Part shown: piece after piece, positions 124-12,274 of the stretch
How the letters are laid out: each line of letters opens with the position of its first letter
Numbering within the stretch: the first letter of the stretch is position 1
NCBI GenBank assembly: GCA_001247695.2
Contig: LGRX02029190.1
Location: 1 to 12,274, forward strand
Direction of reading: 5' to 3'
DNA from: Cymbomonas tetramitiformis
Lineage: Eukaryota; Chlorophyta; Pyramimonadophyceae; Pyramimonadales; Pyramimonadaceae
Length of the DNA: 12,274 bases
Notes under the pieces: model-generated
Database searches by the model: none
The model's input: the letters and a program-made list of their open reading frames with translations, nothing else
Told to the model about the DNA's origin: nothing
Made by a program: the position numbers and the translations under genes

Positions 124-166
124 CCCTACAGATCTGCAACCCTTGGGAAAGCTTTCCATAGGCATG
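124..166 (+). repeat. Left terminal inverted repeat of element A
   Basis: 43 bp beginning CCCTACAGATCTGC, exactly matching the reverse complement of 6802-6844. It contains two perfect palindromes, CAGATCTG (129-136) and GGAAAGCTTTCC (146-157), and its inner part already contains the subterminal motif TTTCCATAGG. The match stops at 167. Confidence 0.95.
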
Positions 167-1350
167 GAAACGGGTGAAAACCCTATGGAAAAGCCCTATG
201 GAAAAGGGAAAATGAATACTGGAGGTTATCTCGAAAACAAAAAATTTGAGTTTCCATCCCTATACTCACCCTTGGGAAGGTTTTCATTATTTTCCAGGGC
301 ATTCCATAGGGTGATTGTGCTTTCCATAGGGTTTTCCAAGGCATTCCATAGGGATGATTGTGGCGTCCATACCTATGGAACGTTTTCCATAGGGATGGAA
401 GGAATCGTATGGAAAATATCGTATGGAAAACCCTATGGAAACCCAATGGAAAGTCCTGGAATATCAAGCGTTTTCCGTACCTATGTCATCCCTATAGCAT
501 TCCTATGGAAAGCCGTATGGAAAACCCTGTGGAAAAACACACGGATATGTTCCATCCCTATGATCACCCTATGTTGGCCCTATGGAACCTAATAGGTCAT
601 ACCTATGGAAATCTTTTCCCCAGGCATGGTACCCCTTGGGAAACCTGTTTCCATACGGACGGTGTACCTATGGAAGCGAATTCCATAGGCATGGTATCCC
701 TTGGGAAGCAATCTTCCATACGGTCGATATACCTATGGAACATTTTCCACAGGTATGGTATCCCCTGGGAAAGATCTTTCCATACGGACATTATGCCTAC
801 GGAAGACGGGCCCATACACTTAGCGTCCCTTGGGAAATAGGTTTCCATACGGCCGACATACTTATGGAAAGGTTTTCCACTAGGTGGCTCACCTTTGGGA
901 AAGATTATTCCATAGGATGGCTATACCTATGGAAACACAATTCCATACGTGCTGTATACTTATGGAAAGGTATTCCATACGGTTATTATACGTATGATTC
1001 CGTTAACAGCATCAGGAGTATACCTATGGAAACGCTTTCCGTAGGGTGACCCGCCCTATGGAATTCATATTCCATACGGTTATTATACTTATGGAGAGCA
1101 TTTTCCGCAGGTGTACTATACCTACGGAAAGCTTTTTCCCCAGGGATACCATGCGTATGAAAACCGTATATTATAGGTATGGAAAACATCTTTCCCTACG
1201 TATGTTATCCGTATGGAAACTATTTACTATAGGCATAGTATAGGTATGGAACCGGTAGATATATATGGTTTCCATAGGCACGATATAGGGATAATATCGG
1301 GATGCTATACGTATGGAACTTAATTAATATTTACTTTCCATAGGCACAAT
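150..1350. repeat. Left subterminal motif array of element A
   Basis: Dense, irregularly spaced copies of CCTATGGAAA and its complement TTTCCATAGG, in both orientations, with variants such as CCTACGGAAG and TTCCATACGG. From about 600 to 850 they form roughly 61-64-bp units combining CCTATGGAA, CATGGTATCCCTTGGGAA and TTTCCATACGG. Subterminal direct and inverted short motifs are standard in CACTA elements, where En/Spm TNPA binds; a binding role here is inference. Open frames across this array are by-products of repetition. Confidence 0.85.
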
Positions 1351-1650
1351 AGTGGGGCAAGTATAGGGATACTGTACGTGTAGCACTGACTGTGTAGCAT
1401 ACATATTGCACATTAGCAACATGCGGTGTGTTCACTATGTTTCCACTATGCGAGATAAACAAAATACTCGAGCATCTTTACTACGATTAACATGTATCTA
1501 GCTAGGCAGAAAGGAATACGAATGGGACTATCAAATTTTATCATACCAACGAATACACAAAATTATGTTCTACTCGTGCACTTTCTATTTACAATACGCA
1601 AAATAATGTTCTTCTCGTGCTCTTTCTATTTACAAGATGCCAACCTAAAC

Positions 1651-1801
1651 GTTGACGTTGTACTCGAGGCCGTCGATTTTCTCCATCTCGCTTCGCTCCA
1701 AAACAACCGATCTAAAATGGAAAGTAAAGAGCCAGCACTTAGTAAAAAAGCGGAAACGCACAAAAGAATATTCTATTGAAAACATAAAGGACTTATCAAC
1801 C
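1651..1801 (+). repeat. 150-bp direct duplication, copy 1
   Basis: Begins GTTGACGTTGTACTCGAGGC and runs to ATCAACC. Copy 2 at 1828-1971 aligns end to end with scattered substitutions and small indels. On the plus strand both read V-D-V-V-L-E-A-V-D-F-L-H, but one extra A in the A-run near 1742 makes copy 1 diverge from the basic tail of copy 2. Substitutions between copies show no third-position excess by my count, so coding is unproven. Confidence 0.7.
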
Positions 1802-1827
1802 TAGAATGTTTGAAGGGATGCTTGAAG

Positions 1828-1971
1828 TTGACGTTGTACTCGAGGCGGTCGATTTCCTCCATTTCGCCCTCCTCGAAAACAGCCAATCTGATAAGGAAAG
1901 TAAAGAGCCAACACTTAGTAAAAAGCGGAAACGCACAAAATAAACCTTTATTGAAAACATAATTAACAACC
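1828..1971 (+). repeat. 150-bp direct duplication, copy 2, with a 45-codon frame
   Basis: Second copy of the 1651-1801 sequence. It holds a small plus-strand frame, ATG 1806 to TAA 1941-1943, of 45 residues, ending in a basic tail K-K-R-K-R-T-K that resembles a nuclear localisation signal. Nothing shows that it is expressed. The minus strand is also open across it, preceded by splice-acceptor-like TTATCAG. I list it as a repeat, not a gene. Confidence 0.6.
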
Positions 1972-2132
1972 GAGCAACCTCAAATAAATGCGAATATGAA
2001 CGCGAGATGAAAACCTAATATGACTTCGCCACGCGAACGTTTTCAGCGGATCTGAAAAACGAAACCAACCAACTAACGTTTAGTAAAGAAGAAAGAAAAT
2101 AGCAGTCGTCAACGAAAGAAGCAAAGGAAAGT

Positions 2133-2136
2133 AAAA
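2133..2136 (-). terminator. Possible Pol III terminator after cloverleaf A
   Basis: TTTT on the minus strand, 8 bases downstream of the discriminator base. Short T runs are common in AT-rich DNA, so this is supportive only. Confidence 0.3.
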
Positions 2137-2144
2137 GGGGGATG

Positions 2145-2206
2145 TGGAGTGAGTTGGATTTGAACCAACTATTTCGAGTGCAAAGGACTCGCGGGAATTT
2201 CACTCC
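2145..2206 (-). ncRNA. tRNA-like cloverleaf A (no D arm)
   Basis: Read on the minus strand: acceptor GGAGTGA (2206-2200) pairs perfectly with TCACTCC (2152-2146), followed by an A as discriminator (2145). An 8-base linker replaces the D arm. The anticodon-type arm is CGAGT-CCTTTGC-ACTCG (2191-2175), the variable loop AAATA, and the T arm GTTGG-TTCAAAT-CCAAC (2169-2153). All 17 pairs are Watson-Crick. GGTTCAAATCC fits the Pol III B box, and a TTTT lies 8 bases past the discriminator. The triplet in anticodon position is UUU (Lys), but the base before it is C rather than the nearly invariant U33, no A box is seen and no CCA is encoded. Not an ordinary cytosolic tRNA; a tRNA-like RNA gene or a tRNA-derived relic is more likely. 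A related copy sits in element B at 10016-10090. Confidence 0.6.
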
Positions 2207-2835
2207 TAGTCAAAGTTTCACGCATGCCAAGTATGAGCGCGCGAAGCACACACAAAATAATACACACGCATAACCAAAACATGCACTGCAAACCAGTGCC
2301 ATATTGCAACCTGTGAGAATTAAAAATATCACAGCACGCAACTCACTGGCGAGGCTGCTGCAACATTGCTGACGGCGAGCTGTGAAGAGTGCAATAACGT
2401 GAGTTTGAACTTGACCGTTCAGAAAAATCGAAGTGCTCAAAAACTTTGCCGTTCAGAAGTCACATCGGATCGACTCGTCATCGTCATGCGAGCACGATCG
2501 ACGATGACGACGATGATGACGATGCGATGCGATGTCTCAGACTCTCAGTGACATTGCATCGGAGATAATCGACTTATAAAATTTAAACTGGGATTAAATG
2601 TAATCGACCCTTCGTAATGGTCTAGAGGTGGCCGTCGTTCTCAGTCTCAATCGAACCTATGAGATCCCGATTTTTTTTGAAGTTCCAGAAATAAAATCTC
2701 GACTAGCCAAAACGGCGCATACAGGCCGCAATTTTGTTTTTTTGCCCCCCTCGTCAGTGAACAAATGGTTTGTTTTCTTGGGGGTGATCGAACAAGCTCA
2801 TTTTATTTGGGGGGGTTTTGGCGGCGGTAGGGGGT
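2207..2835. other. Internal stretch between cloverleaf A and second motif array
   Basis: No recognised gene. It contains an acgatgacga-rich run near 2495-2530, a T8 run at about 2671-2678, further T runs near 2734-2743 and a G7 run near 2810. The reverse strand is open for 76 codons at 2210-2440, but the translation is Cys/Leu/Val-rich without a recognisable motif. Confidence 0.35.
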
Positions 2836-3680
2836 CTTCCATAGGGGTTTCCATAGGGATAGGCTCTGGATTTCCCATAGGGCACACCACTTTTCCCACA
2901 GGCTCCGGATTTTCCATAGGGTACATTGGTGATGTTTTTTAACCTGTTTCCAGGCCATTCCACAGGTATGGACGCCACAATCATAGGGATGATCTCTGTG
3001 GCATTCCTTAACAGTGCAATTCTGCATTTTCCATAGGCATTTTCCAAGTGCGGCGTGTTGCTGTTGTAGGGTCCAAAAAGGGCCTGTTTTAATCTGCCCT
3101 ATTTTTCATTTTTTTGATTCCATCCCTATAAATTACCTATGGAATCCCGAAAATGGGGTGAGCCAACCTATGATCACCCGGTGGAAACGATTTCCATTGG
3201 GGCCTGTGGAAAACTTTCCAGAGTCATTCCATACGATTTTCAGATAGGGGATTTAAAAGTGCCCTATGGAAAGGTTTTTGCCCTATGGAAAGGTTTTTGC
3301 CCTATGGAAAGCCAATGGAAATGCGTTCCCATAGGTTTTACATAGGGTTTTTCCATCCCTGTGTAATTATTTCCAGCCCTACGGACGCCACTATTATAGG
3401 GTTAACACCTCGACCGTTCATAGAATATCAACCCAATATCCCTATGGAAAGTTCAAGTTATTTTCCCATAGGTTGTATAGGGTGGGCATCCCTATGGAAC
3501 CAGAATACAGCATTCCTAACGTATGTCCACCCTATGTCCACCCTACGTTCATGGTATGGAAGGTATTGAACACCTTCCATAGGGATGTCATTGGGCGGAC
3601 CGCCCTATGGAACACATCGTATTGTTTCCATGCCTATGCCCACCCTACGCCCACCCTATGACCACCTCATGATCACCCTA
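2836..3680. repeat. Second (internal) motif array of element A
   Basis: Copies of TTTCCATAGG, CCCTATGGAAA and CACCCTATG reappear 2.7 kb inside the element and continue almost to the first transposase exon. A small exact tandem repeat of CCCTATGGAAAGGTTTTTG occurs around 3261-3300. TATAAAT at 3127-3133 is a TATA-like sequence that could serve the transposase gene, but it is 650 bases from its ATG and there is no further support. Confidence 0.75.
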
Positions 3681-3787
3681 TGCCTAGCAAAATGAAAAGT
3701 TAAAAAGGAAGCAACGGTTCCAAGTAGTCTTGCGTGCTGGTATGGATGGTGTGTTGTGGGCCAGTATTAAACAACCACGGGGTCGAC

Positions 3788-4105
3788 ATGCCACCATGTC
3801 CTTGCACCGTGTGCCGACTACAAGTTGAAAAACCTCTTCGAACGATACAACGACATACGAAGCTATACAAGAGATGGCAAGGAGCGGTATACATGGGGGA
3901 AAGTAGTAGTGAAGACGATACTTCAAGTGATGACGGGGGTGACCGTAATGGTGGTGATGGTGGTTCCCTTGGAGGTGATGATGACATGGAAGATGCCAAT
4001 GCAGAAGCGGACGAAATTCTCCAGGATCATTTGAGAAAGCTCGAAGAACATTGTGCCCGTCTCCTAAGTCCTGCTGCCAACGATGAGGATATGGATAACC
4101 AAGAG
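3788..4105 (+). CDS. Transposase exon 1 (Cys/His motif plus acidic region)
   Basis: 106 codons from ATG 3788 to the donor GAG|GTACCC. Residues 4-9 are C-P-C-T-V-C, followed at about residues 19-27 by T-I-Q-R-H-T-K-L-Y. The same C-P-C-x-x-C and I-x-R-H-x-K-x-Y pattern occurs in the element B exon. Residues about 37-75 are rich in Asp, Glu, Ser and Gly. The ATG at 3788 was chosen over the in-frame ATG at 3734 because it sits just before the Cys motif, as in related N-termini, but the upstream start cannot be excluded. The exon ends in phase 0, like the element B exon. Confidence 0.65.
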
Positions 4106-4535
4106 GTACCCCTCTTTCTGTATTTCCCAAGGGTGGGCGTACGTATGCCAACAGGTGGGCATAGGTTGGGAAATCGTTGAACGTTTCCATAGGGTGGGAA
4201 CAGGCATTCCCAGAGGCGGGTATAGGTACGTAGGGCGCTGGGTAAGTATGCCTATGGAAAGCATTGGACGTTTCCAGTGGGTGGGCATAGGGCGAGCATT
4301 GGGCGGGCATAGGTTGGGAAAACATGGAATGTTTCCATAGGGTGGGCCTGAGCATTCCCAAGGGCGGGTATAGGTGGTTCACGGGGTAGGCATGCCTATG
4401 GAAAGCATTGGATGTTTCCATAGGGTCGGCATAGGGTGGGCATAGGACGGGCATAGGGTGGACATGCGGAGGGAAATGCCTTTTTTTTATTTTGCAGTTC
4501 CTGTAAAGTTGGGGATGCCTCTCGTGATTTCACAG
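4106..4535 (+). other. Predicted intron 1 of the transposase, filled with motif repeats
   Basis: Donor GAG|GTACCC and acceptor TTTCACAG|GT give a phase-0 intron that joins exon 1 in frame to V-V-D-H-V-Y-A-E-K. A stronger-looking acceptor, T8-ATTTTGCAG ending at 4497, would lead straight into a stop codon (TTC CTG TAA). About 4126-4470 is made of GGGTGGGCATAGG and TTTCCATAGGGTGGG repeats related to the subterminal motif. Confidence 0.55.
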
Positions 4536-5052
4536 GTCGTTGATCACGTCTATGCCGAGAAGGTTTCAACAATGCATCGTCTTGTCATTGATCTGCTGGA
4601 AACGAAATCCGAGCACAATGCTACCCAATCCATGTTTGATCAAATCTTCAATCTCATGCGGCAAACGGTGATTGGCAACGTTGACATCATCGGCAATTAG
4701 AGACGAAATGGTTTCCCGACCTCCTTCAAACAAGCTTTGTCTATGTGGAAGGATTTTGCCCTGCCGTACCATACCGCCGACGTTTGCAGGAATGAATGCA
4801 TGATCTTCACTCCGGGCCGGCATGACGACCTTACCCAGTGCCTCCATTGCCACAAACTTCGGTGTCACCCCAGCTCTCGACGTAACGGACGGCTTATTCC
4901 GGGAAAGCCGTACAAGGTATTTAGGTTTTGGCGCTTGGACGAACTCCTGCCGATGCTATATTTGATACCAGAGATGGCCGAGCTCTTGGTATCATGGAAG
5001 ATAACTACACCCGCGGAGAACGACGATCTGCCGGTTGTGACTACGTTTCATC
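4536..5052 (+). CDS. Transposase exon 2 (Tnp2 zinc-like segment) with in-frame stop
   Basis: 172 codons plus one base. The first part (M-H-R-L-V-I-D-L-L ... M-F-D-Q-I-F-N-L-M) resembles the helical region ahead of the Tnp2 domain, where relatives have a DLL...FDxLLxLL pattern. A TAG at 4698-4700 then interrupts an otherwise continuous frame that resumes with F-P-T-S-F-K-Q-A-L, Y-H-T-A-D-V-C-R-N-E-C-M-I-F and T-Q-C-L-H-C. This matches the family's cysteine pairs (C-x3-C, C-x2-C) in spacing and surroundings. The context around the TAG does not match the CAR-YYA type of leaky readthrough site, so it is probably a nonsense mutation. The exon ends at a strong donor, C|GTAAGT. Confidence 0.7.
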
Positions 5053-5285
5053 GTAAGTGTATCCCTCCCACATGCTCACCCTATGCCCACCCTATAACAT
5101 CCCTATGATCACCCTATGTCCACGCTATAACATCCCTATGATCACCCTATGTCCACCCTATGCTCACCCTATGCCCAATTCACAATTGCCTTGCATCCTA
5201 TGTTGACCCTATGCCCACCCTATAGCCGCCCTATGTCCACCCTGTGCCCACCCTATGCTCACCCTTTGGAAAGTATGTGTTGCAG
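5053..5285 (+). other. Spacer between transposase blocks 2 and 3, CACCCTATG repeats
   Basis: Begins GTAAGT and ends TGTGTTGCAG, so it looks like an intron, but splicing these ends shifts the frame by one. It is almost wholly made of CACCCTATGYYC and ATCACCCTATG repeats (about 5064-5270), the complement of the intron 1 motif. It sits where several hundred residues of the transposase would be expected, so it may mark a deletion. Confidence 0.55.
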
Positions 5286-5682
5286 GTACGGCGAGCTTCT
5301 GAAAATTTATAGCATCCCGATTGGCAGGAAACAATTGGTTTTCCTCAAAGTAAGATGGTTTCCATTGAAGGCAGCATTTCAAGATACCGTGGCGAACAAT
5401 ATGATGTTGAGGTCGGACTTGCCATGGGACCTTTCCGAGGTTTTCATCCAAGCATTTGAGATTGAGTGCTTGGTGTGCATTGTACCCATTCCATGGAACT
5501 TTGACCGGTTCATCACGACCAAGAGAATTCCAGCTGGACGACCCGATGCAAATAGGTTGGTATATTATCTCGGCGAGCACAAACTCGGTTTCAATGATCC
5601 ACCATGGAGATATGATAAAGACAAGATGATGCTCATACTAGATAGGCATGTAGATTTTGTGGGCGACTTACATGACGAATAA
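5286..5682 (+). CDS. Transposase block 3 (C-terminal, DUF4216-like)
   Basis: The frame from TAC 5287 to TAA 5680-5682 gives about 131 residues beginning Y-G-E-L-L-K-I-Y-S-I-P and continuing Q-L-V-F-L-K-V-R-W-F. It resembles the Y-G-x-I...V-V-L-F-K-C-D-W opening of the domain found near the C-terminus of plant CACTA transposases. The later part (F-I-Q-A-F-E-I-E-C-L-V-C-I-V-P) could match that domain's F-x-x-A-x-x-x-x-x-V-x-Y-V strand. The resemblance is by eye and moderate. The sequence after the stop turns AT-rich (TATATTAATATGTATATATG), consistent with a 3' untranslated region, before the right array starts near 5741. Confidence 0.55.
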
Positions 5683-5740
5683 CTTGTTCATTTCATAGAT
5701 GGAATTATTCTGTATATTAATATGTATATATGTAGTAAAA

Positions 5741-6801
5741 GCCCTATGGAAAGCCTGGATATATCATGAATCATCACCCTATGCTCACCCTATGAAACCT
5801 GAATGGTTATACCTATGGAAACCCTTTCACAGGTACGGTATCCCTTGGGAAACATGTTTCCATACGGATGATATACCTACGGAAGACCTTTCCACTGGGT
5901 GGCTCACCCCTGGGAAAGCTCATTCCATAGGCTGGCTATACCTATGGAACTCGGTTCCATACGTACGGTATACGTGTGGAAACGTATTCCATATGGATAC
6001 TATAGGTATCGACTTTGCCACCTGTATCAGGAGTATACCTACGGCATGCTCACCCTGTGTTATCCCTATAGCTAACCCTATGGAAACCCCTATGGAATTA
6101 CGTCTTTATTGACCGAGAAAACGCAGAATGAATTGTATATTTCCATAGGTATACTATCCCTATGGGGGCCCTATGGAAAGCCCTATGGAATTACGTTGAT
6201 ATTCCCGAGAATACGCAGAGTGAATTATACGTTTCCATAGGCCTACCATACCTATGGCATCCCTATGGAAGGCCCTATGGAATTACGACTTTATTCCCGA
6301 GAATACGCAGGGCGAATTGTACATTTCCATAGGTGTACTATCGCTATGCCCGCCCTATGGAAAACGTTGTGGAAAACTCATAGTATACGCTAAGTTTCCA
6401 TAGGTGCGCTATCCGTACGCCCGCCCTACGCCCGCCCTTGGACATGCCTATGGAAAGCGTATGGGAAAGTTATATTTTCCATAGGGCTTTCCATCGGCCC
6501 CCTATGCCTATAGCCGCCCTATGGAAGGGTTTACATTTTCCATAGGGTTTTCCATAGTCCTGGTTATGCCTATAGTCGTCCTATGGAAATGTTTACTTTT
6601 CCATAGGGTGATTATACGGCCTTCCATGCCTATGGAACGTCCTTTTCCATAGGCATACAGCCCTATAGAAACCCTATGGAAACTCCAAAAGGGGGTATCC
6701 CTATGGAAATACCCTATGGAAAACTTTCCAAGCCTTTGGAAAATATTTCCGGATTTTCCCGAGCGTTCCCAAGGGCGGGCATAGGGAGGGCACAGGGATG
6801 A
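5741..6801. repeat. Right subterminal motif array of element A
   Basis: CCCTATGGAAA and TTTCCATAGG copies in both orientations from just after the transposase to the right TIR. The block 5889-6044 matches 880-1030 of the left array in the same orientation (shared GGTGGCTCACC, TTCCATACGT and ATCAGGAGTATACCTA). Confidence 0.85.
6094..6370. repeat. 92-bp tandem repeat, three copies
   Basis: Units start with GGAATTACG at 6094, 6187 and 6279, each followed by a CCGAGAA-ACGCAG segment, GAATTGTA or GAATTATA and TTTCCATAGG. Spacing is 93 and 92 bp. Confidence 0.8.
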
Positions 6802-6844
6802 CATGCCTATGGAAAGCTTTCCCAAGGGTTGCAGATCTGTAGGG
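6802..6844 (-). repeat. Right terminal inverted repeat of element A
   Basis: Perfect 43-bp reverse complement of 124-166, ending GCAGATCTGTAGGG at the CCC duplication. Confidence 0.95.
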
Positions 6845-6847
6845 CCC
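6845..6847. other. Target-site duplication of element A, right copy (CCC)
   Basis: CCC follows the right TIR (ending GTAGGG) and precedes GGCAGCCCAAC, which resembles the host 36-bp unit start seen at 73. Confidence 0.7.
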
Positions 6848-6859
6848 GGCAGCCCAACT

Positions 6860-7320
6860 ACGCGCACTACGTGCGGCAGCTCTAGCGCAGGCGGGCAGTT
6901 GCGGCGAGCGGGCGGGGCGCGCACCATGTGCGGCAGCACTAGCGCAGGCGGGTAGTTGCGGCGAGCGGGCGGGGCGCGCGCTATGTGCGGCAGCACCAGC
7001 GCAGGCGGGCAATTGCCGCGAGCTGGCTGGAGGTGCACTATGTGCGGCAGCACTAGCGCAGGCGGGTAGTTGCGGCGAGCGGGCGGGGCGCGCACCATGT
7101 GCGGCAGCACCAGCGCAGGTGGGCGGCAGTTGCTGCGAGCGGGCAGGGAGCGCGCTATGTGCGGCAGCACCAGCGCAGGCGGGCAATTGCTGCGAGATGG
7201 TGGGGAGCGTACTACGTGCAGCAGTATCGGCGCGGGCAGACAGCTGTTGTGAGCTGGCAGGGTGCACACTATGTGCCACAATACCGGAGCAGGCGGACAG
7301 CTGTTGCAAGCGGGCGGAGT
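6860..7320. repeat. 57-bp minisatellite in the host frame
   Basis: Unit around GCGCACTATGTGCGGCAGCA then CAGGCGGGCAGTTGC; the ATGTGCGGCAGC mark recurs at 57-bp spacing (near 6917, 6974, 7031, 7088) and then, after a 3-base insertion, near 7148 and more divergently to 7270. Because 57 is a multiple of 3, several frames on both strands stay open. Confidence 0.85.
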
Positions 7321-7654
7321 GTGCACGAGTGGCGCAAGGTAACAACGAGCTGGTGGAGTACGCATGCACGGCGTGCGAACCGGTAGACCTGGTTGGGTGC
7401 GCATGCGCGAAGCACAGCAGGTGCAAGGACCTTCGACTCCAAGTTCAACTCTTATGGCAGCAAGATCGTGACCATCAGATCCGAGAAGCCGAACGAGCTG
7501 AGCGTCAGAAGCAACAGCCTGTTCCGGCTCGGATAATAATAGCTGCTGCGACTAAGTTGCGTACTGCTGAGGCTGCCCGCGGACTTGCTGCCCCAGCAAC
7601 CCAACAGGTCAGTGCTGACTCAGCAGCCTGCAAAAGGGGGGGGAAATGGGCAAC

Positions 7655-8338
7655 GCCGGCGCTGCCCCCGCGGTCGACGCTGCCGACGCAGGCGCTACCT
7701 CAGCAGCTAGCACCCGCGCTGCCCCATGAGCGGGCCCCGGCAGGCGCTGCCCCCACAGTCGACGCAGCCGCTGCCCGCGCTGCCGACGCTGCCGACGCAG
7801 GCGCTGCCGACGCAGCTAGCACCGGCGTTGTCCCACGAGCGGCCCCGGCAGGCGCTGCTCCCGCGGTCGACGCAGCCGCTGCCCCCGCTGCCGACGCTGC
7901 CGATGCAGGCGCTACCTCAGCAGCTAGCACCGGCGCTGCCCTACGAGCGGCCCACGCTGACGCTGCCCCCGCTGCCGACGCAGGCGCTGCCTCAGCAGCT
8001 AGCATCCGTGCTGCCCCAGCTGCAGCAGCCCACAGCAGCAAGCTGCCTCAGCAGCAGCACAGAGCCCCAGCCATCACCGGAGCTGCCACAGCAGCCCACT
8101 TCGGAGCTGACCCAGCAGCCAGCGCAGGTGCTGCCCCGTCAGCCCACACCGGTGCTGCCCCACGAGCAGCCCACGCCGGCGCTGTCGCACAATCAGCCCA
8201 CTTCGGAGCTGACCCAGCAGCCAGCGCTGGTGCTGCCCCGTCAGCCCACACCGGTGCTGCCCCACGAGCAGCCCACACCGGTGCTGCCCAACGAGATGCC
8301 TACGCCGGAGCTGCTGCCGGAGCTACAGCAGCCCACTT
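7655..8338. repeat. 108-bp and 102-bp Pro/Leu/Gln-coding tandem repeats
   Basis: GCAGGCGCTGC-type units spaced 108 bp (for example 7741 and 7849) give L-P-T-Q-A-L-P-x-Q-L-A-P-A-L. A second family with CGGAGCTGACCCAGCAGCC recurs 102 bp apart (about 8103 and 8205) and gives Q-P-T-P-V-L-P repeats. Confidence 0.75.
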
Positions 8339-8358
8339 CCCTACCAAATAGGGACGGG
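8339..8358 (+). repeat. Predicted left terminus (TIR) of element B
   Basis: CCCTACCAAATAGGGACGGG. It contains the inverted pair CCCTA/TAGGG and runs into the 14-bp hairpin. It cannot be verified without the other end. Confidence 0.5.
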
Positions 8359-8387
8359 TCCATGTGATTCACAAATCACATGGACCC
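8356..8387. repeat. Perfect 14-bp stem hairpin near the element B terminus
   Basis: GGGTCCATGTGATT (8356-8369), loop CACA, then AATCACATGGACCC (8374-8387). It is made of two facing copies of the element B motif. Confidence 0.9.
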
Positions 8388-8895
8388 CGCATGGACCTCA
8401 CGTGGACCCCCGTGGACTTGGAATGGACCTCGCATGCCCCAAATGGTCAGACATTTCTCCCTAGGGGTCCATATGGGTCCACTGAAGGTCCATGTGGGGT
8501 CCATACGGTTTTCAGTCACATGGACCTCACATGGACCCTCCCTACGGGTCCATGTGGGGTCCATGTGATACCTCTTAGTGTGTACGTAGCATGTGGACCC
8601 GACATGGACCGGTGAGGGCCGCATGGGTCCGATGGTCAGACATTCCTACGGGTCCATGCGACGCATGGACCCCACATGGACCCCGCATGGACCAGTAGTA
8701 GGTACAATCACATGGACTTCACGGGGACCACTCAGTTATCATCACATGGACCCCACATGGACCGGTGAGGGCCACATGGGTCCGATGGTCAGACATTCCT
8801 ACGGGTCCATGCGACGCATGGACCTCGCATGGACCCGTAGGGAATGCATCACATGGACCCAGCATGGACCCCGCCCGTTTGGGCGCTCGCTCGAT
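8388..8895. repeat. Left subterminal CATGGACC array of element B
   Basis: Many copies of CACATGGACC, GGGTCCATG and variants in both orientations. A 69-bp segment is duplicated with one difference (8603-8671 and 8756-8824, offset 153). Three of the five exact ATGGTCAGACATT boxes of element B are here (8443, 8632, 8785). Confidence 0.85.
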
Positions 8896-9343
8896 GGGTC
8901 CATATGATTACTCAGCAGGTCCATGTGATTATTAAGCGGGTCCATATGATTGTCTTGCGGGTCCATGTGATTATTTAGCGGGTCCATGTGGGCATTAAGC
9001 GGGTCCGCGTGATTCTTCAGCGGGTCCATGTGGGCATTAAGCAGGTCCGTGTGATTATTTAGCGGGTGCGTGTGATTATTAAGCGGGTCCAAGTGAGTAC
9101 TCCGTTGGTCCATGTGATTATCAAGCGGGTCCATATGATTGTCTTGCGGGTCCATTTGATTATTTAGCGGATCCATTTCATTATTTAGCGGGTCCATGTG
9201 GGTATTAAGTGGGTCCGCGTGATTCTTTAGCGGGTCCATGTGACTATTAAACGGGTCCACATGATTATTATTCCATGGGTCCATGTGACTATTCCACGGG
9301 TCCATTTGATAATCATGCAGGTCCACGCACGTGATTATTTAGC
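8896..9343. repeat. 21-bp minisatellite, about 21 copies
   Basis: Units GGGTCCATGTGATTATTTAGC and variants at strict 21-bp spacing from 8896 to 9253, then 24, 21, 21 and 25 bp. Neighbouring unit types recur as a block: 8938, 8959, 8980 and 9001 match 9127, 9148, 9190 and 9211, giving a higher-order period of nine to ten units. The minus strand reads as M-D-P-L-N-N-H heptads because 21 is a multiple of 3. Confidence 0.95.
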
Positions 9344-10015
9344 AGGTCTATGTACTCTCTTGTGAGTCCGAAAATGCTGCCGTTCGTGCTATCGCTGGGC
9401 ATGAGATTCTCGCATGGCGGAGGAAGGCAAAGCATTGTTACAAAGATTGTGCATGCTAACAAAGCAAGCAAGGGCACATCATCTTTCAACAAACGATAAC
9501 GACGGAACTGTTAAACATACATGAACGTATTACATTCACGTATTATTTTCAGCCTATCCACCCTATCGTTATAAAATTCACTACAAACCAGGTTGGCACG
9601 AAACCTTAACATCGACGAAAGCATACATAAAATACTTGATGAACACATAATACTTAAAGGTTAAATATAACTAGTTACTCGCACAAAACTCCTAACATCC
9701 TACAAACTATTTTCCTATACCGTGAACGCGGAGATGCAACAGGCGGTAAGCAGACCTGCAGTCGGACAACGAGACACAGAAATTAGTAAACGCATAATAA
9801 GAAAGAGACCGAATGCAACACAACTGCGAATAATAAAGAAATGGAAACCAAACAGCGAACAAGACAACCGACGATTTGAGTGTCGCGCACCAAACATCCG
9901 ACTGTGCTGATATTCGTGAGGGAGCTCAACTGGATACATCGTTCAACAGATTTCTGCGGGCACAAGGACAATCCGGTCAGAATATTTCCAATAAAACAAA
10001 ATACGTATCGTCCGG
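9344..10015. other. AT-richer internal stretch of element B, no convincing gene
   Basis: Counterpart of 1351-2144 in element A. There is no motif array and no recognised protein. A 190-codon minus-strand frame (9783-10355) crosses this region and the cloverleaf; it is Leu/Cys/Val/Ser-rich with no family resemblance I can name. Confidence 0.4.
9998..10001 (-). terminator. Possible Pol III terminator after cloverleaf B
   Basis: TTTT on the minus strand 14 bases beyond the discriminator, with a second TTTT a few bases further (9993-9996). Weak evidence in AT-rich DNA. Confidence 0.3.
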
Positions 10016-10090
10016 TGGGGTGGGTTGGAATCAAACCAACGAACTTGCTCCAGTCCGAAGAACTGGGGAGACGCATGTCTCTTCCACCCC
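10016..10090 (-). ncRNA. tRNA-like cloverleaf B (complete four-arm fold)
   Basis: Read on the minus strand: acceptor GGGGTGG (10090-10084) pairs with CCACCCC (10023-10017), discriminator A (10016). A D-type arm GAGAC-ATGC-GTCTC (10081-10068) has only a 4-base loop without GG. The anticodon-type arm is CCAGT-TCTTCGG-ACTGG (10066-10050), the variable loop has 9 bases, and the T arm is GTTGG-TTTGATT-CCAAC (10040-10024). All 22 pairs are Watson-Crick; length is 75, normal for a tRNA. The anticodon position reads UUC (Glu), but position 33 is C and the T loop has T where C56 is expected. Minus-strand TTTT lies about 14 bases past the 3' end. Acceptor, anticodon and T stems align with cloverleaf A, with changes that keep pairing. 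Confidence 0.65.
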
Positions 10091-10310
10091 CAATGGCACA
10101 AACAAGTAGAGAAAGATTGCGCAAAAAATACGCGTGAGCAAACCATAATAAAAATTCAACAAGAAGGTCTACGTATGCATGAATATCACAGTATACAGAA
10201 AGCACACAGAGCAAGACTGCACGAGGGCTCTCTGAGACCGCCGACAAAACTGAGTGGAGGACTTTTGGGCTCCATCCTCCAAATGCTGAAAAGTCAATAC
10301 AGTACCGACG

Positions 10311-10392
10311 CAAGTCCATGCGAGGTCCATGCATGGTCAGACATTTTTGCACCACATGGACCCGGACCCACGCCTAGACCCGGCGTTTTTTT
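10311..10392 (+). repeat. 80-bp dispersed duplication in element B, copy 1
   Basis: CAAGTCCATGCGAGGTCCAT through the ATGGTCAGACATT box to CCCGGCG and a T9 run. It is nearly identical to 10605-10687. Confidence 0.85.
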
Positions 10393-10787
10393 TTGTAAAA
10401 TCTCGGGGACCCGCTGGTCCTCATGGGGGCAGTGTGAGAGCGAGCCTTTAACACTGGTCGGTCCAAGTGAGGTCCATGTGTAACGCGTAACCCCAAAATG
10501 CACTTTTTTAAGCAAAAAAAGGCAAAAACACCTGTGCGTCGGTCCCATAGGCTTCATTACGGGTCCATGCCGTCGGTCCCACAGTGGTTCAACGGGTTAT
10601 TTGGCAAGTCCATGCGAGGTCCATGCATGGTCAGACATTTTTGGACCACATGGACCCGGACCCACGCCCTAGACCCGGCGTTTTTTTACTTTACCCCATA
10701 GGGGCGGGCTGTGTTCCACCTATGGGACCATAGGGTTTATTAGGGTTGCGGCGTCTTGCTGCGGTGGATTCCGAACGGGTCCGTGTG
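10393..10787. repeat. Second (internal) motif region of element B
   Basis: Scattered GGTCCATG, GGTCCCATAGG and TGGTCGGTCC motifs around duplication copy 2. No gene seen. GTTGCGGCGTCTTGCTG at 10744-10760 echoes GTGCGGCGTGTTGCTG at 3047-3062 of element A, at a comparable distance upstream of the transposase exon. Confidence 0.5.
10605..10687 (+). repeat. 80-bp dispersed duplication in element B, copy 2
   Basis: Same order of parts as copy 1, with one substitution (TTGGACC for TTGCACC) and one extra C in CGCCCTAGACC, again ending in CCCGGCG plus a T7 run. Confidence 0.85.
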
Positions 10788-10960
10788 GGGTCCGTGTGGG
10801 GTCCAAGGCATGGTACCGACGGGTCCATGTGGGGTCCCAGGCATGGTACCGACGGGTCCGTATGGAGTCCAAGGCATGGTACCGACGGGTCCGTATGGAG
10901 TCCAAGGCATGGTACCGACGGGTCCGTGTGGGGTCCAAGGCATGGTTCCTACGGGTCCGG
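10788..10960. repeat. 33-bp minisatellite upstream of the element B transposase
   Basis: GGGTCCGTATGGAGTCCAAG plus GCATGGTACCGAC units start at 10821, 10854, 10887, 10920 and 10953. The 33-bp period makes an 11-residue G-M-V-P-T-G-P-x-G-V-Q open frame, a by-product of the repeat. Confidence 0.9.
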
Positions 10961-11126
10961 GGTTCGGGACCGGTTATGGACTGAGTGATTCCTATCGGTC
11001 CGAGACCCCGCCCCCGTATAGTACTGCTCGCTTTAAACACTTACTCACCCGTGTACGACCTTTTGCAGGCGTTCTACCTGCAACATGCTGGATAAAATGG
11101 TTTGGCACTTGTCTATGTGACGATAG

Positions 11127-11573
11127 ATGGCGACTCCACAGGGCATACAAGGAAGCCGCCCTGGACGCTACGTTTCAGAGTATGGCATTTGTCCGTGTAA
11201 TCAATGCCACCACCGAGGGCTTACGACACGTGAACTTGGCCGCCGTCAAATTCTCCGACATGTCAAACAATATGGTGTATACATTCCGCAACAGGAGTTC
11301 GAAGAAGAGAATGAGCGATCATCTCCCGGAGATGATGAGATGGGCGGTGCGGATCGTGACCATACCCCTCGGGAAGCCGAGGTGATATCCAACTTTGAAG
11401 CGTTGGCGAAACACATCGAGGACTTGGGGTTTGGGAAACAACTACGTGATGATGATGGCGAATCGTCATCCGGAGACGATAGCGGCGAAGGGGAAGGCGG
11501 TGGCGAGGAGGATGAAGATGCCGAAGAGCTTACCGACGACTCTGCGGATGATTCCGATGGCGAAGGCGATGTG
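11127..11573 (+). CDS. Element B transposase N-terminal exon (Cys/His motif plus acidic region)
   Basis: 149 codons from ATG 11127 to the donor GTG|GTGAGT, ending in phase 0. In-frame TGA and TAG codons lie directly upstream of the ATG. A good acceptor, CCTTTTGCAG ending at 11068, suggests a spliced 5' leader. Residues 22-27 are C-P-C-N-Q-C and about 39-49 are R-R-Q-I-L-R-H-V-K-Q-Y, matching C-P-C-T-V-C and T-I-Q-R-H-T-K-L-Y of the element A exon. A Glu/Asp-rich tail fills residues about 57-149. This is the N-terminal part typical of plant CACTA transposases; the catalytic part should lie past the window. No damage is visible in this exon. The Cys/His motif may bind zinc and DNA (inference). 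Confidence 0.7.
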
Positions 11574-12274
11574 GTGAGTGCGGTGTTCAGGATGTGGTAC
11601 CCATTGGGAACATGTGGGGGGCCTATCGGTACGGGACGTGGTACCGGTCTAGGACCAGTACATACCGCCTCGTACGGTTACAGTAGTGAGTGATGCTTGC
11701 AAGTTAAGGTACCCACATGGGACCGATATGGGACCTGTGTGAACGGCCCGGTCCCATGTTTGGTACCGGATGGGGACCCATATTGCCCCATGACTTTACA
11801 CATGCATCCTTCTAGTAAAATCTGAAACCAAGCATTCCAAAAACTGAAATCTAAATGCTCTAACGTAGAGCAAAAATAGCCCAAAACTGAAATATGGAAA
11901 TCTAACGTAGACCAAATTGACCGAGGTAGAAAATCTGAAACCAAGCATTCCAAAAACTGAAATCTAAATGCTCTAACGTAGAGCCAAAATAGCCCAAAAC
12001 TGAAATATGGAAATCTAACGTAGAGCAAATTGACCGATGTAGAAAATCTGAAACCAAGCATTTCAAAACCGAAATCTAAATGCTCTAACGTAGAGCTAAA
12101 ATAGCCCGAAACTGAAATATGGAAATCTAACGTAGAGCAAATTGACCGAGGTAGAAAATCTGAAACCAAGCATTCTAAAAACTGAAATCTGGAAATCTAC
12201 CGTAGAGCAAAAATAGCCCAAAACTGAAATATGGAAATCTAACGTAGACCAAATTGCCCGATGTAGAAAATCTG
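11574..12274 (+). other. Predicted intron 1 of the element B transposase, 5' part
   Basis: Starts GTGAGT in the same place and phase as intron 1 of element A and is likewise filled with repeats: GGTACC and CATGGGACC motifs (about 11596-11800), then a 113-bp satellite. No acceptor can be assigned before the window ends. Confidence 0.5.
11817..12274. repeat. 113-bp satellite, four units to the window end
   Basis: TCTGAAACCAAGCATT recurs at 11821, 11934, 12047 and 12159, and TCTG starts again at 12271. Each unit contains two related halves around CTAACGTAGA, and in several copies the hairpin GCTCTA-ACG-TAGAGC. The unit carries no gene; the minus strand happens to stay open. Confidence 0.95.

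Follow-up and report, generated by a model that had tools for sequence, protein, structure and literature searches.

The 12,274-nucleotide (nt) contig LGRX02029190.1 of the chlorophyte Cymbomonas tetramitiformis, analysed here as one whole contig (the window) and against a host genome of 852 Mb in 25,745 contigs, carries two CACTA-like transposons, A and B, each of which contains a tRNA-shaped element on its minus strand. This cloverleaf is conserved at a fixed place in the two transposon families. On a tentative interpretation, to which we assign a probability of roughly 0.4, a minus-strand transcript likely includes it, and the tRNA-processing nucleases RNase P and RNase Z are predicted to cut it, much as they cut the vertebrate mascRNA.

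Structure of the cloverleaf

A preliminary description of the window had placed minus-strand cloverleaves well inside the left part of both elements, and these are indeed present at the claimed sites, 2.02 kb (A) and 1.68 kb (B) from the respective left ends (Table 1). Reading of the letters bears out its account of the stems as well: A and B have 17 pairs in common (acceptor stem 7, anticodon arm 5, T arm 5), of which 14 are identical and three (acceptor pairs 3 and 7 and the second pair of the anticodon stem) are changed on both sides, with none broken, and three of the seven bases differ in the anticodon loop and likewise in the T loop. The window copy of A is a shortened form with a 6-nt deletion in the D arm, and hence has no D arm. 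The full A form, of 68 nt, has a D arm reading GGGA-AAT-TCCC; its stem contains a further two-sided change and brings the comparison with B to 21 pairs, of which four are changed on both sides and none broken. Folding with RNAfold recovers the acceptor, anticodon and T arms in A (minus strand, 2206-2145) and all four arms in B (10090-10016), where the anticodon loop is closed by two extra pairs. The T arm is the best-kept arm of the cloverleaf: A and B do not differ in its stem, whereas the acceptor stem is changed at two of seven pairs with pairing kept. The T loop follows the pattern UUNRA and the discriminator base is A.

Several comparisons indicate that the resemblance is beyond chance. 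The Rfam tRNA model (RF00005) matches the window copy of A at 34.4 bits (gathering score 29; E 3.8e-4), and the sole Rfam match to B is tRNA-Sec (RF01852) at 23.6 bits, under its gathering score of 47. When only the complete A form was used to build a covariance model (R1), B scored 43.2 bits, with E 7.1e-10 for the window, and the runner-up 12.5 bits; on the opposite strand the model yields 9.9 and 8.0 bits, which shows that the fold belongs to the minus-strand reading. A strict scan for a cloverleaf with T loop, the rules of which were fixed after A and B had been seen, gave 14 matches in 168,695 bases (the window and loci L067-L100), every one of them this element, as against a single match in 2,342,720 bases of dinucleotide-shuffled sequence. 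Further, the A and B cloverleaves are identical at 50 of 68 places, with an alignment score of 21.0 against a maximum of 9.5 among 500 shuffles. Nine of ten flanking windows of the two elements score at most 5.5, and the tenth, in which both carry a CATCGTC-type repeat, reaches 16.5.

Copies, subfamilies and the conservation peak

Among the 11 distinct A copies read, seven have the 68-nt form, two a 67-nt form and two the 62-nt form (the window copy and one on contig C13148); the search for A gave 40 matches of 942 candidates. The cloverleaf lies about 2.02 kb from the left end in all seven A copies, and 1.63-1.68 kb from it in all six B copies, in which that end is visible. The letters of the B cloverleaf are the same in 30 of 30 fetched loci including the window (103 candidates, 40 scored). 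A 22-place pattern covering the T arm and acceptor end, with G57, occurs at 97 genome sites, with 0 and 0 hits for its controls; 95 of these sites are B-type and the other two belong to a new type, A2. Twenty of the 97 were fetched, namely 18 of B-type, some chosen for odd letters, and both A2 copies (L101 and L102). Additionally, a subfamily of B, termed B3, was met in two of 20 fetched left regions near B-type exons.

The subfamilies allow conservation to be compared along the elements. B and B3 are 84% identical over 904 bp, but their cloverleaves differ at only two of 75 places, one of which is private to L078, the copy representing B. The highest identity over 75 columns (97%) is reached in windows that start at L078 positions 2264-2267 and 2277-2284, and all of them overlap the cloverleaf at 2267-2341. 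Likewise, the cloverleaves of A and A2 copy L101 are 94% identical and form the top window of their alignment; identity is 75-82% in the 154 nt upstream, 12-51% farther upstream (one stretch 68%) and 64-90% downstream. The cloverleaf is thus the best-conserved stretch of its surroundings in both the A-A2 and B-B3 comparisons.

Pairing across the families was assessed by pair counting in a set of five sequences (A, two A2, B and B3). Of its 21 pairs, 16 are invariant, four show two-sided changes and one is broken in a single copy (L101). In all, 104 of 105 cells are paired, as against 26-53% with the partners slid, and both the number of paired cells and the covariation score exceed all 500 shuffles, a comparison in which related rows can exceed such shuffles without any structure. 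With the fixed place, the pairing kept between families and the conservation above the flanks taken together, the proposal in the preliminary description of a conserved structured element in this lineage appears sound.

Distinction from tRNAs and tRNA-derived repeats

The cloverleaf shares with tRNA and tRNA-Sec a 7-bp acceptor stem, the UUNRA T loop and the discriminator A. Canonical tRNAs have a D loop with GG, U8 and U33. In contrast, the D loop here has merely 3-6 nt and lacks GG, position 8 is A, U33 is absent, and the anticodon loops differ between the families; on these grounds a working tRNA was rejected. A functional tRNA with an aberrant D arm could explain why the window copy of A passes the Rfam tRNA gathering score, but only this D-deleted copy does so, with nothing at that score in three loci bearing the 67-68-nt forms (L031, L032 and L033). 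Moreover, ARAGORN reports no tRNA in the window and none in four of four cloverleaf loci, whereas it finds 15 of 15 host tRNAs; such a tRNA is therefore very improbable. The 63 scored host tRNAs (30,467 first-look candidates) reach 59-75 bits. A copy of a present-day host tRNA was likewise rejected, as none of the 15 read out of the 63 aligns with the element, the best score being 4.0 as against 21.0 between A and B. As observations in their own right, host tRNA genes of equal or near-equal score stand in tandem at 233-bp spacing on contigs C21113, C4825 and C23810, and one same-score host tRNA, on contig C2061, reads as tRNA-Lys(CUU).

A tRNA-derived short interspersed nuclear element (SINE) would also combine a tRNA-like fold with a B-box match such as that in A and A2. 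Here, by contrast, the element has a fixed place inside a transposon with terminal inverted repeats. Because the copies read share transposon flanks and no independent insertions were seen (the 97 pattern sites being read in part), a SINE was rejected on the copies read.

Predicted transcription and processing

The motif TACTAA occurs four times on the minus strand of the window and not at all on the plus strand, and each occurrence has a YAG within 34 nt after it. Because such TACTAA-YAG acceptors are found, within the window, on that strand only, the minus strand likely gives rise to a spliced transcript. One predicted acceptor (2052..2085) lies about 60 nt downstream of the A cloverleaf and is kept in A2 copy L101. 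The minus strand of A at 1640-1930 also holds two similar short exon-like stretches, each behind such an acceptor, which are perhaps a duplicated exon of a minus-strand gene.

The acceptor and T arms are the parts of a tRNA that RNase P and RNase Z read. In the favoured interpretation, a spliced minus-strand transcript would run across the cloverleaf, and the host RNase P and RNase Z would cut on both sides of it. The most likely use would be to provide a defined end for the antisense transcript or to release a small stable RNA.

Alternatively, the cloverleaf could be an independent RNA polymerase III (Pol III) gene for a small tRNA-like RNA, driven by an upstream promoter of its own and ending at a T run, which ranks second among the explanations and which we regard as possible though somewhat unlikely. 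In line with this, a TTTT tract starts 8-15 nt past the cloverleaf in each of the five forms (A, two A2, B and B3). A TATT-rich box precedes the cloverleaf by 56 nt in A and in one A2 copy out of two, and by 40 nt in B; the stretch of 154 nt ahead of the cloverleaf shows the A-A2 conservation given above, and A and A2 contain a match to the B box (GGTTCAAATCC, GGTTCGAATCC). However, TTTT is common in the AT-rich flanks, and the TATA-like box is found neither in L101 (A2) nor around the corresponding position of B3. Additionally, no A box is present in the letters of A, A2, B or B3, so that the A-plus-B-box arrangement of a type 2 Pol III gene is lacking, and the D loop is merely 3-6 nt long. 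The B box itself appears spoiled in B and B3 (GGTTTGATTCC), because T replaces the C that is key to the B-box consensus at T-loop position 56, although the T-loop pattern is retained. A short motif resembling TGTGATATT, which precedes the cloverleaf by about 100-130 nt in A, B and B3 and is altered in both A2 copies (loci compared: L033, L101, L102, L073 and L097), is a possible promoter element.

The altered position 56 also bears on a role as a DNA site, which could be a TFIIIC boundary of B-box type or a cruciform to which the transposase binds. Both elements are rich in inverted repeats, and pairing could be kept in DNA too. However, the T-loop pattern persists where the B box is spoiled, and for this reason the boundary role suggested in the preliminary description has become less likely. 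Further, the fold is specific to the minus-strand reading by the R1 scores, and the element lies 1.6-2.0 kb inside, away from the ends that transposases bind. A DNA site is thus decidedly improbable.

Points weighing against a selected, spliced RNA

A number of observations weigh against the favoured interpretation of a selected element in a spliced, processed transcript. The number of two-sided pairs in the five-sequence set is reached by 134 of 500 shuffles and that of further pair types by 493 of 500; neither beats the shuffles, because each of the four changes falls between the A side and the B side. In A2 copy L101 one T-stem pair is broken, and pair-breaking changes occur in B copies L078, L104, L105 and L108 (shared by these two), L110 and L116, outnumbering the pairing-preserving ones (L103 and L117). 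The preliminary description had taken a structured RNA to recur inside related elements and not to break its pairs as often as preserve them; further copies are indeed found inside related elements, but single B copies break pairs more often than they preserve them, an excess that decay of dead copies would give. With regard to splicing, A2 copy L102 is without an acceptor behind its cloverleaf, and the plus-strand introns of the transposase contain no TACTAA, which may therefore not be the general branch site of the host.

Relatives without the cloverleaf belong here as well. A third family, C, has a last exon 38% identical to that of A and adjoins an A copy; in the one copy examined, of which the left end was not found, no cloverleaf is present in the 12 kb left of the last exon, the best score being 14.6 bits. 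Furthermore, 18 of the 20 fetched left regions near B-type exons have no cloverleaf. In 15 of these 18, the B right part starts from L078:2733 or 2774 and the sequence leftward of it has no match to B, so that the left parts seem to have been exchanged and the cloverleaf is not needed for the presence of an element in the genome.

These relatives also bear on the alternative that a tRNA gene or tRNA-derived repeat was captured once by an ancestor and is now a functionless passenger, a view in keeping with the tRNA-like T loop and acceptor stem, the pair-breaking changes gathered by single copies and the existence of elements devoid of the cloverleaf. Against it, conservation peaks at the cloverleaf in both subfamily comparisons, four two-sided changes with no broken pair set the A form apart from the B form, and the T-arm pattern met B-type and A2-type letters only (97 of 97 sites), with no copy outside the elements among the copies read. 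We therefore consider a passenger improbable.

Separately from these readings, the B-type transposons (L081-L100) show at least two unrelated left parts joining a common right part at L078:2733 or 2774, as if whole left modules were exchanged between elements. Family C (L067:130-1700, L079, L080) is itself numerous, its last exon giving 1384 first-look candidates of which 150 were scored, and has CCAAAGGCTTGG-type arrays, a right end reading CCCTACAAAATAGGG inward and a homologous transposase. An 18.8-bit match at L067:1603-1678 has a different fold and sits in a terminal array of this family, and was dropped.

The transposons carrying the cloverleaf

The coordinates of the features in the window are collected in Table 1.

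Table 1. Features of the two transposons in the window
Feature	Position	Strand	Remarks
Element A, whole	124..6844	.	Perfect 43-nt terminal inverted repeats, 124-166 and 6802-6844
Third predicted intron acceptor of A	1712..1744	-	TACTAA ... TAG
Second predicted intron acceptor of A	1888..1920	-	TACTAA ... CAG
Predicted intron acceptor of A, downstream of cloverleaf	2052..2085	-	TACTAA ... CAG
TTTT tract of A	2133..2136	-	Starts 9 nt past the discriminator base (+8 in both A2 copies); possible Pol III terminator or trailer
tRNA-like cloverleaf of A	2145..2206	-	62 nt, 6 nt of D arm lost; RF00005 34.4 bits, R1 74.9 bits
Last exon, transposase-like gene of A	5284..5682	+	Exon limits are our reading
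Element B	8338..12274	.	Left end at 8338; right end beyond the window
Predicted intron acceptor of B	9756..9788	-	TACTAA ... CAG
Two TTTT tracts downstream of B cloverleaf	9993..10001	-	Sequence reading
tRNA-like cloverleaf of B	10016..10090	-	75 nt, four arms; R1 43.2 bits
First transposase-like exon of B	11127..11576	+	Limits are our reading

Element A of the window has a 3-bp target duplication, CCC, and such duplications of 3 bp are present in all four A copies inspected (that of the window and three of three others). The left end of B was set from copy alignments, in which four copies start at 8336-8339 and one at 8326, and it reads CCCTACCAAATAGGG in five copies. The termini of both elements are thus CCCTAC rather than CACTA, with CCCTACAG at the end of A. 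Both carry a transposase-like multi-exon gene on the plus strand. The last exon of A is matched by 150 of 150 scored copies out of 1260 first-look genome candidates, and a B exon query (11127-11450) gave 262 candidates, of which the 150 scored are 94-100% identical. Among the scored matches, the genome protein searches returned only near-identical copies of the query's own family (98-100% for the last exons of A and C, 94-100% for the B exon).

Relatives elsewhere are scarce. Two A exons have merely two and one relatives, on short contigs, among 5.8 billion proteins, and neither viral contigs searched by protein nor genome contigs searched for relatives elsewhere gave any. Viral contigs searched with a T-arm pattern gave 28 loci, which we would guess to be phage tRNAs. 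A terminal-inverted-repeat pattern for further families met five genome sites. No Pfam transposase matched the six window and three locus stretches searched. The CACTA identity given in the preliminary description accordingly stands in part: like CACTA (En/Spm) elements, A and B are rich in inverted repeats and have a multi-exon transposase-like gene, and the 3-bp target duplications agree, whereas the CCCTAC ends, the absence of a Pfam transposase match and the antisense tRNA-like element set them apart. On the strength of the ends and duplications we call them CACTA-like, with membership unproven. Element A is flanked at 6845-8337 and 1-123 by GC-rich sequence (69-75% GC) with an open frame of 502 aa.

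Relation to known systems and implications

To our knowledge, DNA transposons of this class are known for their proteins and terminal repeats and not for structured RNAs. In the literature covered by titles and abstract openings, subscription papers lying mostly outside, no tRNA-like element in CACTA or any other DNA transposon was found. The tRNA-like structure is thus of a known kind, and its location inside such a DNA transposon is new to us.

The closest parallel is provided by mascRNA and menRNA of the MALAT1 and NEAT1 transcripts. According to a 2025 report, RNase P and RNase Z cut these tRNA-like structures on either side, their hairpin III is under the strongest selection, and MALAT1 and NEAT1 are called the sole long non-coding RNAs that mature through the tRNA machinery (PMC12941219). 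Hairpin III would by position correspond to the T arm, so that a tRNA-like fold, a best-conserved T arm and a link to a longer transcript, here predicted, are common to both systems. They differ in that, according to that report, the structure belongs to vertebrate host genes, stands at the 3' end beside a triple helix and is cleaved (PMC12941219), whereas here cleavage is predicted, the structure recurs at well over a hundred sites in transposons of a different eukaryote, and predicted intron acceptors lie downstream of it.

A more far-reaching proposition, which on present evidence is rather doubtful, is that this CACTA-like lineage encodes an antisense tRNA-mimic RNA that uses the host tRNA-processing enzymes to yield a defined RNA aiding the element, which would be the first structured non-coding RNA gene of its class. 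If a selected tRNA mimic is indeed present at well over a hundred sites in transposons, it would follow that elements of this kind may employ RNA as well, and MALAT1 and NEAT1 would be joined by an unrelated case.

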